Both the position numbers and the translations under genes were made by a program. A stretch of DNA of 45,712 nt from Gemmatimonadota bacterium. GTDB lineage: Bacteria > Gemmatimonadota > Gemmatimonadetes > Gemmatimonadales > Gemmatimonadaceae. Each line of letters starts with the position of its first letter. The stretch's first letter is position 1. Below are positions 39,855 through 44,855 of this stretch, one piece after another. Location: positions 1 to 45,712 of the forward strand of contig VHBP01000014.1 of the NCBI GenBank assembly GCA_016871915.1, read 5' to 3'. The notes under the pieces are model-generated. The model saw only the letters and a program-made list of their open reading frames with translations, did no database searches and had not been told where the DNA came from.

Positions 39855-40025
39855 TCGCGTAGCGTATCCGACCCCTCTTCCCAAGACGGACCTCGACGAA
39901 ATTGGGCGTGCGGAGTGCAGTTAATTGAGGCGGTGTGAAATGCATTGGTGTGGCCACCTCTGACCTGCGTGACATCCTGATGGGTCAGGAGTCACCTTGC
40001 GCACTATATAAAAAACGCTATATTC
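39855..40025 (+). promoter_or_regulatory. Intergenic region with candidate promoter/operator of the toxin-antitoxin pair
   Basis: The last part is clearly A/T-richer than its surroundings. TATATA (40005-40010) and TATATT (40019-40024) are candidate -10 boxes; TTGCGC (39997-40002) lies 16 bases before the second. CTGACC (39960-39965) and GGTCAG (39983-39988) form an inverted repeat that could be an antitoxin operator. The toxin ATG follows at 40026 with no ribosome-binding site, so translation may be leaderless. Confidence 0.35.
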
Positions 40026-40349
40026 ATGTCAGAACGGCCAATCGTCTGGCTCGGCACGTCCCTCGCGGTGGTCCGAGCGCTCCCTGGCCGTGCGCGACAG
40101 GCGGTCGGCTACGCCCTTGTCCGCGTGCAAAACGGATGGGAGCCGTCGAACTGGAGACCGATACTAAGCGTCGGACCCGGTGTACGGGAGATCCGGGTCC
40201 AAATCGGTCAGGACTATCGGGTACTCTACGTGACACGATTCTCAGATGCCATCTACGTGCTGCATGCGTTCGAGAAGAAGTCGCAGAAGACCTCACATCA
40301 CGACATCACGATCGCTCGCGCCCGTCTCGCCTCGTTGACCCACTCCTGA
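40026..40349 (+). CDS. HigB/RelE-type toxin (phage-derived Gp49-like)
   Basis: Probable ribosome-dependent mRNA interferase of a type II toxin-antitoxin pair. The 107-residue protein has the Gp49-like layout: an N-terminal helical part (ALPGRARQAVGYALVRVQNG), strands VREIRVQIGQDYRVLYVTRF and the highly characteristic AIYVLHAFEKKSQKTSHHDI near the C-terminus, followed by a helix ending in ARLASL. The basic KKSQKT segment and the Arg/Tyr of YRVLY are the residues usually linked to RNA binding and cleavage. The toxin precedes the antitoxin, the order typical of HigBA. The antitoxin starts 14 bases downstream. Confidence 0.9.
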   Translation: MSERPIVWLGTSLAVVRALPGRARQAVGYALVRVQNGWEPSNWRPILSVGPGVREIRVQIGQDYRVLYVTRFSDAIYVLHAFEKKSQKTSHHDITIARARLASLTHS

Positions 40350-40363
40350 GCCCAACTGCCCCG

Positions 40364-40807
40364 ATGTCCAGACCTCAGCGCACCACTGGAAACGTCTTCG
40401 CCGACCTTGGGTTCTCACCTGAGGAAACGCGACACCTCAAGGTGCGCTCGACTCTCATGATGGCGCTGGAGCGCATCATCAAAGCTCGGGGTCTCACCCA
40501 GCAGCAGGCTGCCACTCTCTTCGGGGTCGCGCAGCCTCGGATCAGTGATCTGATGTGTGGAAAGATCGATCGGTTCAGTAGCGATATGCTGATCGACATG
40601 CTCACCACCGCCGGCGCGGAGGTGCGTGTTCAGGTGCGCCCTACGCGCCCACCCGCCACGGCGGCAACGCGCCCGCCTTCCGCGCCAACGCGAGATTCTT
40701 CCGATAGAGTGTCGCGGTCCGGCCGATCGTCTGGATCACCTCGGCCTTCACCCGCCCCGCGAGGTCGTTCGCGGCCTGCTTCGCCGAGACCTCGGCGGTC
40801 TTGTTGA
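40364..40807 (+). CDS. XRE-family (HigA-like) antitoxin with a C-terminal read-through extension
   Basis: DNA-binding antitoxin partner of the preceding toxin. Residues 1-92 look complete: the family opening TGNVFADLGFSPEETRHLKV and a helix-turn-helix LTQQQAATLFGVAQPRISDL (residues 44-63), then IDRFSSDMLIDMLTTAGAEV and a closing strand. Family members normally end at about 90-100 residues. Here no stop occurs there, and the frame runs another 55 codons across the 3' end of the convergent yhbY gene. The added part is Pro/Arg/Ser-rich and low-complexity, and it reads as the antisense of yhbY. The native stop was probably lost through deletion or insertion at the junction. The DNA-binding part should still work; stability of the extended protein is unknown. 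Confidence 0.82.
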   Translation: MSRPQRTTGNVFADLGFSPEETRHLKVRSTLMMALERIIKARGLTQQQAATLFGVAQPRISDLMCGKIDRFSSDMLIDMLTTAGAEVRVQVRPTRPPATAATRPPSAPTRDSSDRVSRSGRSSGSPRPSPAPRGRSRPASPRPRRSC

Positions 40808-40959: not shown

Positions 40960-41511
40960 TCAGTTGCCCCCAGCCCGTAAGAGATTGGGGAGCGGATCGA
41001 GCACCGCTCCCTCCCACCAGCGCTTGGGTGGGCCCATCCGAAAGACCTGGAAGTGAAGATGCGGGGCGTCCTTCGTCGCGTTCCCCGTGTACCCCACCGT
41101 CCCGATCCGATCCCCGCGTCGCACACGGTCCCCTTCACTGAGGCCGCGGCGCTGCGTGTCGAGATGCGCATAGTAATAGACGATGCGCTTCTTTGGGTCG
41201 CTGAGATAGATGACCTTGCCGCCGAGGTCGTTGCGGCCGACACGGAGCACATAGCCATCATCGGCGGCGAGGACAGGGGTGCCCTTCTTCGCCATGATAT
41301 CGACCGCCTGATGGATGCGCCCGCCACTTCGGGCCGCACCAAAGGAGTCACGGAGCGCATCCGACTCGACCCCCTTCACCGGGATGATCAACTCGCGAGA
41401 GCGGAGGTACGCCGCCTCGGGGGCCTCGCGTGGTGCGATCGGCGCACGCGGTGCGCCGCACGCCGCGAGGGCGAGGGAGACCAAGAGCATTCCGAGGCGG
41501 GGGGTTCGCAT
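40960..41511 (-). CDS. M23 (LytM-type) peptidase, predicted lipoprotein
   Basis: Cell-envelope zinc endopeptidase that cuts peptidoglycan cross-links or activates amidases. The ATG at 41511 is chosen over an upstream start because it opens a lipoprotein signal, MRTPRLGMLLVSLALAAC, with Cys18 as the lipid site. The LytM domain has GRIHQAVDIMAKKGTPVLA (zinc ligands His67 and Asp71) and APHLHFQVF (catalytic/ligand His151 and His153). The intermediate strand YYYAHLDTQ is typical too. All key residues are present, so it should be active. It is 183 residues long, without coiled-coil or LysM parts. It is divergent from the thioredoxin-like gene (61-base gap) and ends one base before yhbY. Confidence 0.9.
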   Translation of the reverse strand: MRTPRLGMLLVSLALAACGAPRAPIAPREAPEAAYLRSRELIIPVKGVESDALRDSFGAARSGGRIHQAVDIMAKKGTPVLAADDGYVLRVGRNDLGGKVIYLSDPKKRIVYYYAHLDTQRRGLSEGDRVRRGDRIGTVGYTGNATKDAPHLHFQVFRMGPPKRWWEGAVLDPLPNLLRAGGN

Positions 41512-41572
41512 ACACCATGAAAACGAGCCGCGAGGGGGGTGCGTCACGGCGTCCACCCATCAGATTTCAGGG

Positions 41573-42184
41573 ATGACGTCGCTTCTTGACCGCTTCCAGC
41601 AGGGCCTCTCGTACGACGCCTGGCTCGCCGCCTCGACCTACCCCAAGTACGTCGCCCTGCAACAGTCGATTCGCGCTCGGGCGGAGGTCGCCCCCGATCT
41701 CGTCGCGCGGGTGGAGGCGCTCGACCGACCCTGGCATCTCCTCGTGCTGAGCGCCGATTGGTGCTCCGACGCGGTGAGCATCGAGCCCTGGCTCGACGCT
41801 CTCGTGGCAAGCGCCTCTCGTTTGTCTCTCCGACTCCTCGATCGGGACCAGTATCTCGACCTGATGGATCAGCATCTCACCAATGGTCGCTCGCGATCGA
41901 TCCCGGTGGTGCTGGTGCTTGATGAGCGCGGCGTCGAACGCGGGTGGTGGGGACCGCGTCCACGCGCCTTGCAGGGCTGGGTGATGTCCGACGCGGCGCA
42001 GACGATGCCAAAGGAGGAGCGCTTCCGCGAGCAGCGCCGCTGGTACACCGAGGATCGCGGTCGTGCGATCTGCTCGGAGCTCGTCGCGCTACTCGAGCGC
42101 TGCGCCCAGTCGTCCGATGGCGGGCTCATAGCCCCAGACCCGATCCCGCCCTCGACCGGTGAGCTCCCGGGCCACACCGAGTGA
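41573..42184 (+). CDS. Thioredoxin-like protein lacking the resolving cysteine
   Basis: Cytoplasmic thioredoxin-fold protein of the Thioredoxin_9 type, about 203 residues. The helical N-terminus (LLDRFQQGLSYDAWLAAS) leads into WHLLVLSADWCSDAVSIEPW. The active-site motif usually reads W-C-x-D-C or W-C-G-D, and here is Cys64-Ser-Asp-Ala67, so only the nucleophilic Cys remains. The cis-proline loop is RSIPVVLVLDERG. Such proteins cannot run the usual dithiol cycle; a glutathione-linked or non-catalytic role is possible (inference). The last 96 bases overlap the 3' end of the gene on the opposite strand. The C-terminal 25 residues are Pro/Gly-rich and look like an unconserved tail. Confidence 0.83.
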   Translation: MTSLLDRFQQGLSYDAWLAASTYPKYVALQQSIRARAEVAPDLVARVEALDRPWHLLVLSADWCSDAVSIEPWLDALVASASRLSLRLLDRDQYLDLMDQHLTNGRSRSIPVVLVLDERGVERGWWGPRPRALQGWVMSDAAQTMPKEERFREQRRWYTEDRGRAICSELVALLERCAQSSDGGLIAPDPIPPSTGELPGHTE

Positions 42185-42958
42185 GGTGAGGCGCTCGAGC
42201 GCCTGCTGCGCGGCGGGCCGTGAGCAGTCGAGATCTTCAGCGACGATCGGCATGGTGAGGATGATGCTACGGCGGAGGAGATCGAGTACGGGGCGTGTGG
42301 TCACGGCGGCACGACCGAGTGCGGCGAGTCGCTCGTTCTCTCGGGCCTGACCAGCGGTGATCGCGCGCAGTGCGTCGTGACGCGCGCGCAGTTGTGCGAT
42401 GAGAGCGGTGAGCGTGAGGTCTCGCCATGGCGCTTCGTCGCCTACGCGCCAGGCTTCATGCGCGGCAGCGCGAGACTCGACGTCGATGAACGGCAGGAGA
42501 ATGAGTCGATCGGTGCGCCCCGCACTCACCAGCGTGAGCGTGGCAAGGCACTCCCCCACCCCCGTCGACGGCGCCCAGGCGGTGAGATCGAGGATCCGCT
42601 CGAGCACGCCGCGATCACTCCCCGCGCGGAGCGCGGCTTCCAGTCGGTCGGCATCGGGGTACGTTTCGATGGTGGGATCGAGCGAGGTGAGTCGCGCCAG
42701 TGAGGGGATGCCTCCGCTCCGCGCGCGGCGCTCCTCCTCGACCAGCAGGTCTCGCACCGCACGCTCGGCGGGCGTAAGCGCCGCATCATGAAATGGATCG
42801 GCCTCGGCGGCGAGCAATCGATGGAGCGAGTCGCGTGTGCCGGTGGTCAGCCGGGCGGTACAGAGGAGGCGCAGGACGGTCGCCGCGCCGAAAGGGGCGG
42901 CGGTCACGGCGGCATCGAATCGAGCCAGAGCGTCGGCTGCGTCCTCTAGAAGCTTCAC
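42089..42958 (-). CDS. Fic-like protein with degenerate active site and C-terminal winged helix
   Basis: A 289-residue protein from a GTG start. The C-terminal 75 residues are a winged-helix DNA-binding module as found at the end of Fic proteins: PVLDLLRRSIILTMPIVAED, SRPAAQQALERLTSLGVARE and LTGRGRDRVWGYEP. The middle aligns by eye with the Fic core: LEAALRAGSDRGVLERILDL precedes WAPSTGVGE (128-136) at the place of HPFxxGNGR. Next, LTLVSAG, LPFIDVESR and GDEAPW match LLxxxGLL, LSxFIERNR and GDWExW. All catalytic residues (His, Asn, Arg) are therefore replaced. It is likely a transcription regulator derived from a Fic AMPylase, or a relative such as the DUF1612/HTH proteins. Recognition of the Fic core is inference; the wHTH is firmer. 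Confidence 0.62.
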   Translation of the reverse strand: MKLLEDAADALARFDAAVTAAPFGAATVLRLLCTARLTTGTRDSLHRLLAAEADPFHDAALTPAERAVRDLLVEEERRARSGGIPSLARLTSLDPTIETYPDADRLEAALRAGSDRGVLERILDLTAWAPSTGVGECLATLTLVSAGRTDRLILLPFIDVESRAAAHEAWRVGDEAPWRDLTLTALIAQLRARHDALRAITAGQARENERLAALGRAAVTTRPVLDLLRRSIILTMPIVAEDLDCSRPAAQQALERLTSLGVARELTGRGRDRVWGYEPAIGRLGAALE

Positions 42959-43048
42959 AAAAGTAAAATTAGGACTTTAAGGTTAGTTTTGCAAGAATTC
43001 AGTGGCAGCACTTCCATTAAACCATCCGAATAAAAACTCTTAAAGCAT
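42959..43048 (+). promoter_or_regulatory. A/T-rich promoter region with a Bacteroidota-type -7 motif
   Basis: This 90-base gap between divergent genes is visibly A/T-rich, unlike the rest of the window. TAGTTTTG (42984-42991) fits the Bacteroidota -7 consensus TAnnTTTG exactly; a matching -33 TTG was not found at the proper distance. The ChaN-type gene starts at 43049 with an A-rich rather than a GGAGG-type upstream sequence, again Bacteroidota-like. The minus-strand Fic-like gene would also be driven from here. Confidence 0.45.
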
Positions 43049-43948
43049 ATGAAAATAAGATTTAGCATCCTTAATATTGTTTTTTCGGCTATTTTCACTG
43101 TCCAGCTCAGCGCTCAGGCCTATCCCTTCCATCGCGTCTACGATACCAAGGGCAAGCGGTTCGTCGACTTCGAGGCGATGGTCGCCCGCCTCGCCACCCA
43201 GGATCTGGTCTTCCTTGGCGAACAGCACAACGACCCCCGCACCCACCAGCTCCAGGCGGCGGTCCTCGAGGGGATCGCGCGGCGCCGTTCTGGGCCGATC
43301 GTCCTCGCCCTCGAGATGTTCGAGCGCGATGTGCAGGGGCCGCTCGACGACTACCTCGCCGGCACGCTGAGCGAGGAGCAGTTCCTCGCCACCTCGCGCC
43401 CCTGGCCCAACTACCCGACCGACTATCGCCCGATGGTCGAGTTCGCGCGGAGCAAGCAGTGGCCCGTGATTGCGGGGAACATCCCGCGGCGCTACGCCTC
43501 GCAGGTGGCGCGTCGCGGCCTCGCCGCGATCGACTCGTTGCCGGCCGCCGAGCGTGGGTGGGTGGCAGCGCAGCTCGACTGCCCGCGCGACGAGTATTGG
43601 GAGCGTTTTCGTGGCGTGATGGGGGACATGGGTGGCCACGGCACGCCGATGACGAAGGAGCAGCTCGAGGCGACGGTCTGGCGTACCTATGAGGCGCAGT
43701 GCGTGAAGGACGAGACGATGGGGGAGTCGATCGCGGCGGCGCATGCGAAGGCCGACGCGCTCGTGATCCACGCCAACGGTGCCTTCCACTCGGATTACCG
43801 GCTCGGGACGGTCGATCGTGCAAAGCGTCGCTCGCCAACGGCGAAGATCGGCGTCGTGAGCTTCATCCCGGTCGCCGATCTCGATACCGCGAACGGGAAG
43901 CCACAGCGGAAGATCGGCGATTACATCGTCTTCACGTTGAAGCCCTAA
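43049..43948 (+). CDS. ChaN-family (DUF399) haem-binding uptake protein
   Basis: Exported 299-residue protein of the ChaN/Cofac_haem_bdg group, linked to haem or iron uptake. The signal peptide KIRFSILNIVFSAIFTVQLS is Lys/Ile/Phe-rich and encoded by A/T-rich codons, with cleavage near SAQA; there is no lipobox Cys. The mature part has the family motifs LVFLGEQHNDPRTHQLQAAV, VLALEMFERDVQGPLDDYLAG, WPVIAGNIPRRYASQVARRG and LVIHANGAFHSDYRLGTVD, encoded in G+C-rich codons like the neighbours. The switch occurs at about 43110. The stop overlaps the convergent neighbour by CTAA/TAG sharing four bases. No TonB receptor for haem is adjacent. The mosaic 5' end suggests recombination or acquisition from a low-GC relative. 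Confidence 0.9.
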   Translation: MKIRFSILNIVFSAIFTVQLSAQAYPFHRVYDTKGKRFVDFEAMVARLATQDLVFLGEQHNDPRTHQLQAAVLEGIARRRSGPIVLALEMFERDVQGPLDDYLAGTLSEEQFLATSRPWPNYPTDYRPMVEFARSKQWPVIAGNIPRRYASQVARRGLAAIDSLPAAERGWVAAQLDCPRDEYWERFRGVMGDMGGHGTPMTKEQLEATVWRTYEAQCVKDETMGESIAAAHAKADALVIHANGAFHSDYRLGTVDRAKRRSPTAKIGVVSFIPVADLDTANGKPQRKIGDYIVFTLKP

Positions 43949-44844
43949 CGATCCTCCCACGCGAACCCAGACGCGAGCCGCGTGAAGCGGCGCGCCGCGC
44001 GATCGAAGCGCAAGATCGAGGTCGCCCCGCCCCGCTCCGTTCGCCCGATGGCAGCGAGATCGTCGACCCCATCGCCATCGGCGTCGAGCGCGTGCAGCAG
44101 ATCGTGCACCTTGAGACGGAAGTCCTCTAGGGGCACCGCGCGCACCATTCCCTTGGCGTCGATGAGCACGAGTCGTTGCCGCGTCCACTCCAGCGTCGGC
44201 GTCCGGAGACTCACCACAAGCGCGATCGTCGCGCGATCGAAGCACCCCGCGACCTCAGACGATGCACTCGTCACTCGGCTCGCGAGTCGCGGATAGGGCG
44301 GGAGGCCGGCGGCACGCAGCACCTTCACGAGTGAATCGCGGACGACCTGCACGCGCTTCTTCTCGTCCGCAGTGAGCGGCTCGCGTACACAGGCGGAAGC
44401 GTTCGGACCCTTCGCCGTGGTCACCGACGCGACCACGGTCGCGGTCCGCTGCGCGAGGGAGTCCATCACCGCCGACCCCTGCAGGACGAGCACGATCCGT
44501 CCGTTCCAGGTATCCACCGCCTGCGCCGTGACCGCCTCGCTCCCCCAGGGCCCGCGGAGCTGGAAAGTCGTCCCCACGGTGATCGGGGAACGTTCGGCGA
44601 CGGCGGTGCGATACGCGGTCGCCACGGCGGAGTCCTTCCGCACCTCAAGATCCACGCGGCCGATATCGAGGAGCATCCGCTTGCCGCGGTTCGCCGCGAC
44701 GAACCAACTTTCGTCGACCGGACGAAAGACGAGATAGGGACGGATGCTGTCAGGGGTGATCTGCGCCGCGCCGTCACGTGGCGCGAGGCCGATCGCACTC
44801 GCCACGACGACGACCGTCAGAAATGCTCCGCACACGCTTCGCAT
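43945..44844 (-). CDS. Secreted protein of unknown function with a DxDxDG loop
   Basis: No family was recognised. The ATG at 44844 (two codons after a possible TTG) gives 299 residues with a signal peptide (MRSVCGAFLTVVVVASAIGL) and cleavage near DGAAQ. The first half contains beta-strand-like stretches (YLVFRPVDESWFVAANRGKR, VGTTFQLRGPWG). Two cysteines (CVREP and GCFDRA) could form a disulfide. Close to the C-terminus is DADGDGVDDLAAIG (from about residue 254), a DxDxDGxxD calcium-type loop as in EF-hand-like or VCBS/FG-GAP repeats. It is followed by ILRFDRAARRFTRLAS, which also fits a propeller-blade repeat. Divergent from the xdhB-type gene with only 11 bases between starts. An extracellular or periplasmic role is likely. 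Confidence 0.7.
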   Translation of the reverse strand: MRSVCGAFLTVVVVASAIGLAPRDGAAQITPDSIRPYLVFRPVDESWFVAANRGKRMLLDIGRVDLEVRKDSAVATAYRTAVAERSPITVGTTFQLRGPWGSEAVTAQAVDTWNGRIVLVLQGSAVMDSLAQRTATVVASVTTAKGPNASACVREPLTADEKKRVQVVRDSLVKVLRAAGLPPYPRLASRVTSASSEVAGCFDRATIALVVSLRTPTLEWTRQRLVLIDAKGMVRAVPLEDFRLKVHDLLHALDADGDGVDDLAAIGRTERGGATSILRFDRAARRFTRLASGFAWEDR

Positions 44845-44855
44845 AGGCAAGGAAT

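Follow-up and report, generated by a model that had tools for sequence, protein, structure and literature searches.

The window, a stretch of 45,712 nucleotides from an uncultured Gemmatimonadota bacterium, encodes next to chaN a compact protein that appears to derive from class-II Fic proteins with a C-terminal winged helix and to have dispensed with their active site. Sequence comparisons established the Fic ancestry, the loss of the catalytic apparatus throughout a clade, the conservation of the winged helix, and the pairing with chaN. We propose that the protein is a non-catalytic, Fic-derived regulator with a putative DNA-binding winged helix, probably acting on its own gene and on chaN.

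Table 1. Features of the Fic-derived locus (window coordinates).
Feature	Position	Strand	Evidence
Compact Fic-derived wHTH protein gene, 289 aa	42089..42958	-	GTG start; orthologues; codon-position bias
Residues 3-120, Fic_N-like N-terminal helices	42599..42952	-	hhalign; profile match of residues 1-207
Residues 128-136 WAPSTGVGE, lost catalytic loop site	42551..42577	-	Alignment; neither sequence nor length constant among relatives
Residues 137-185, post-loop Fic core (LPF; WRxGDxxPW, resembling VRxxGDWExW of Fic)	42404..42550	-	Profile alignment, conservation
Residues 214-277, HTH_13-like winged helix	42128..42319	-	Pfam match; conservation
AT-rich intergenic region, candidate control region for both genes	42959..43048	.	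Gap between divergent genes
chaN, haem-binding ChaN/Tiki family, divergent partner	43049..43948	+	PF04187; synteny

The open reading frame, whose translation is as first described, is a genuine gene since 15 other genomes of the genus have a counterpart (one of them a fragment at a contig end) and it shows a codon-position bias: between the window protein and its closest relative, codon positions 1, 2, and 3 differ at 40, 28, and 103 sites across 289 codons. Further counterparts occur in two more genera of the same Gemmatimonadota family. A scan of genome contigs with the single protein returned one relative, the nearest named record being an uncultured Gemmatimonadetes MAG, and no relative was found in viral contigs. 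All 30 motif-less members examined formed one clade (support 99/96) that excluded both canonical Fic proteins and RHE_PE00001, in a tree where some distant rows have long branches and the deep order is unsure. At its 3' end, the gene overlaps a thioredoxin-like gene (41315-42184, +) tail to tail by 96 bp (42089-42184). Elsewhere in the window, a Gp49-like gene (PF05973; 40026-40349, +) lies beside an HTH_37 gene (HTH domain within 39935-40807, +), and the two are a probable type II toxin-antitoxin pair.

The preliminary description had aligned the protein with the Fic domain before and after the active site, and profile comparisons bore this out. A profile of 18 relatives matched a profile of 11 canonical Fic-wHTH proteins from the same order at 99.6% over the full length (289 columns). 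When the winged helix was removed (leaving residues 1-207), the Fic match was still 92.8% in the same register, compared to 0.2-0.6% for reversed controls. Among solved structures, the family profile retrieved one significant match only, the Fic protein 7CB8 (positions 9-293, E = 1.8e-8). The SoFic model of PADLOC also matched residues 173-281 (7.7e-11), spanning the post-loop core and the winged helix. With the full-length and winged-helix-less profile matches, 7CB8, and the SoFic model all pointing the same way, Fic ancestry is well supported at the level of sequence. In the HMM search suggested at the outset, neither the Fic nor the DUF1612 models matched, and only HTH_13, the companion of DUF1612, did. 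Pfam Fic (PF02661) and Fic_N gave no match to the window protein at E-values up to 10, and PF02661 matched nothing in the window genome (2.07 Mb assembly); matches to Pfam Fic are present in other genomes of the genus and order. An AlphaFold model built from two sequences had a pLDDT of 50, too poor to rely on for the fold, and the best two hits of this model in a PDB search were Fic proteins, neither of them significant (E = 0.098 and 0.88). Our literature search for 7CB8 and for Fic proteins of Gemmatimonadota returned no useful papers.

Fic catalysis requires the His, Asn, and Arg of the catalytic loop. Because this loop is lost, AMPylation by the Fic mechanism is not expected for the window protein, judging from its sequence, and the protein presumably performs no other chemistry either. 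Neither HPF nor GNGR occurs in the window protein or in 29 relatives, and the loop of catalytic Fic proteins, HPFx[D/E]GN[G/K]R, is likewise absent from all of them (the Fic catalytic motif is described in PMC2686095). It had been noted that WAPSTGVGE replaces the motif and that no other HPFxDGNGR exists in the protein. The second point held, and WAPSTGVGE does occupy residues 128-136 (W128 to E136), but in the best alignment register approximately seven loop residues are deleted rather than substituted one-for-one, as is the flap. In this register, S131-T132-G133 lie over N-G-R and V134-G135-E136 over VGR; the canonical helix ending in QFET pairs with WAP, seven loop residues are left unpartnered, and VGRLL pairs with VGECL. 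The beta-hairpin flap is missing after about residue 94: by sequence, a canonical segment of ~35 residues, which includes PGEFRRSQNWIGG and ends in NARFV, has no counterpart in the profile alignment. The motif of the inhibitory helix persists as a remnant at T39-G40-T41, where canonical Fic proteins have EGT, so that the Glu is lost; the SxxxEG motif has become TTGT in the window protein and IEPT or TDRT in relatives. The disappearance of loop, flap, and inhibitory Glu across the clade agrees with the earlier suggestion that AMPylation was lost.

The C-terminal winged helix is intact, and the segment SRPAAQQALERL...GRDRVWGYEP spans residues 246-279. Pfam HTH_13 matched residues 224-276 with 28.3 bits, above its cut-off of 26.1, and the winged helix ranks first in conservation among the long segments of the family (mean conservation 0.74, compared to 0.41-0.66 for the other segments, one short one excepted), as the first reading of a well-preserved winged helix had anticipated. 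In CbFic2, a characterized Fic-wHTH protein, the C-terminal HTH binds DNA; CbFic2 is an active enzyme, and its DNA binding was assayed on random DNA (PMC10628234).

The preliminary description also placed the gene next to an A/T-rich promoter region and a ChaN gene. The neighbor was confirmed as ChaN (PF04187, 3.8e-60), and the gap between the two genes is indeed AT-rich (GC 0.33 over 87 bp). In each of the 27 loci in which both could be read (15 in the window genus, and eight and four in two other genera), the Fic-derived gene and chaN are divergent, with intergenic distances estimated at 39-206 bp from start codons chosen by rule. One genome, G116, has a duplicated pair in which each copy of the gene has its own chaN. 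In two others (G035 and G164; loci L112 and L114), the Fic-derived gene is kept and chaN is not detectable; instead, a pair of FAD_binding_5 (FAD-binding molybdopterin-dehydrogenase subunit) and MobA-like genes lies nearby. A third genome, G013, was considered as a joint loss of the pair; this was rejected and G013 was left out of the counts, as the end of its contig falls within chaN. Contig ends also truncate the loci of G004 and G158. Synteny extends to the yhbY, M23, and thioredoxin-like genes (block yhbY-M23-thioredoxin-like-gene-chaN), hence part of the chaN linkage may reflect block conservation. An old block common to the whole family does not fully account for the pairing, however, because 12 chaN genes in nine other genera have no such divergent partner and show no linkage to the block's M23 gene. 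A gene at 43945-44850 (-), which has no Pfam match, is a conserved chaN neighbor in three genera.

Searches of the intergenic regions yielded no conserved inverted repeat (best z = 2.4 among 45 tests) and no shared operator, and no sigma70-like site was found in the gap. A TAnnTTTG promoter box occurred in six of the 27 regions versus 1.9 expected, but the maximum among shuffles was seven, and the box is not claimed.

We envisage an ancestor among the class-II Fic proteins, equipped with a C-terminal winged helix, that lost its catalytic loop (HPFxDGNGR), its substrate-binding flap, and its inhibitory Glu, and with these would have lost AMPylation by the Fic mechanism. The helical body that remains would serve in dimerization and perhaps in binding a signal, while the winged helix would bind the divergent intergenic region and thereby control transcription both of the gene itself and, in genomes that have it, of chaN. 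DNA binding, dimerization, regulation, and any signal are steps that we infer. Haem as the signal is a guess from chaN, given that the family alignment contains no conserved His or Cys of the kind typical of haem ligation and suggestive of haem sensing. We also entertain, tentatively, a bolder version for the whole clade, in which an AMPylating Fic protein might have turned into a dedicated transcription factor for the haem-binding ChaN, its catalytic groove either emptied or reused as a signal pocket.

The same Fic-derived, catalytically dead protein might instead regulate only itself or distant genes, with the chaN neighborhood being inherited synteny without function. The retention of the gene without chaN in G035 and G164, the conservation of the larger block, and the lack of a shared operator would all fit such an arrangement. 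We nevertheless consider it rather unlikely, since the divergent pairing holds in every readable locus of three genera, including both copies in G116, and chaN is unlinked elsewhere. Far less probable is a pseudoenzyme that binds protein instead of DNA and works through heteromeric contact with a second Fic protein. A precedent is reported from Campylobacter fetus, where Fic proteins are neutralized by heteromeric Fic-Fic contact in which one with a degenerate motif takes part (PMC5651007), but the window genome has no canonical Fic protein to act upon, and no long segment is as well conserved as the winged helix.

The C. fetus system also bears on whether the window protein could still be an enzyme with a non-canonical active site, as Fic2 of C. 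fetus is toxic despite its degenerate motif (PMC5651007). Fic2, however, retains the catalytic His, whereas the window protein has both loop and flap deleted at a site that varies in sequence and length among relatives, and we give continued catalysis the least credence of all. Fusion of a winged helix to a helical domain unrelated to Fic would explain the silence of Pfam Fic and Fic_N and the poor AlphaFold model, and alanine-rich helical sequences can align by chance. Yet the part before the winged helix matched Fic in register far above the reversed profiles, and the only significant solved structure was a Fic protein, which makes an origin outside the Fic family very improbable. If the Fic-derived regulator that we favor is real, it would show clearly how the fold of an enzyme can give up catalysis and yet persist, through its DNA-binding arm, as a stable regulator across genera, and ~30 proteins with a fixed neighbor make the idea of Fic-wHTH proteins as regulators directly testable. 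It also serves as a warning that hits to SoFic or Fic-wHTH models can flag proteins unable to be AMPylases.

Canonical class-II Fic proteins with Fic_N and a wHTH (SoFic, 7CB8, and CbFic2) share with the window family a full-length match in register, the winged helix, and a post-loop segment like VRxxGDWExW. By contrast, the window family lacks their catalytic loop, flap segment, and inhibitory Glu, and, counted from the first helix that both have, is ~50 residues shorter. A second comparison is with RHE_PE00001 and DUF1612 + HTH_13 proteins of rhizobial plasmids, which are also motif-less, combine a remotely Fic-like N-terminus with a winged helix at the C-terminus (described for DUF1612 by Kinch et al., 2009, PMC2686095), and share the HTH_13 Pfam family. 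Their profiles and ours, however, match each other solely in the winged helix (6-7% without it), and the window family falls in a clade separate from RHE_PE00001. Membership in RHE_PE00001 was rejected (NCBIfam NF040876, 23.1 bits against a cut-off of 250 bits), as was membership in DUF1612. Since the DUF1612 model (PF07756) has no match and only its companion HTH_13 does, the window family is a cousin of DUF1612, not a member. It is closer to canonical Fic. The RHE_PE00001 model weakly picked up a genuine Fic protein (L032, genome G034; E = 1.6e-8), in line with a Fic ancestry of RHE_PE00001 itself.

The third comparison is with HTH proteins encoded on Rhodobacterales plasmids, a large group with a DUF1403-like C-terminus (alignment A5; L139-L146 and L040), mostly annotated as hypothetical, several of which adjoin a recombinase gene. 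These are motif-less as well and matched the window family at 97.3% over most of its length, but differ in their hosts, plasmid setting, and conserved residues; the group looks like another motif-less Fic-wHTH family. The window protein itself was not assigned to DUF1403, as PF07183 reached 25.6 bits against a cut-off of 31.8 and covered the C-terminal third only. There thus seem to be three or more groups of motif-less Fic-wHTH proteins. No description of the window clade with its chaN pairing was found in the papers and libraries searched; the clade is a separate, unannotated branch, of the kind foreshadowed by the 2009 account of DUF1612.
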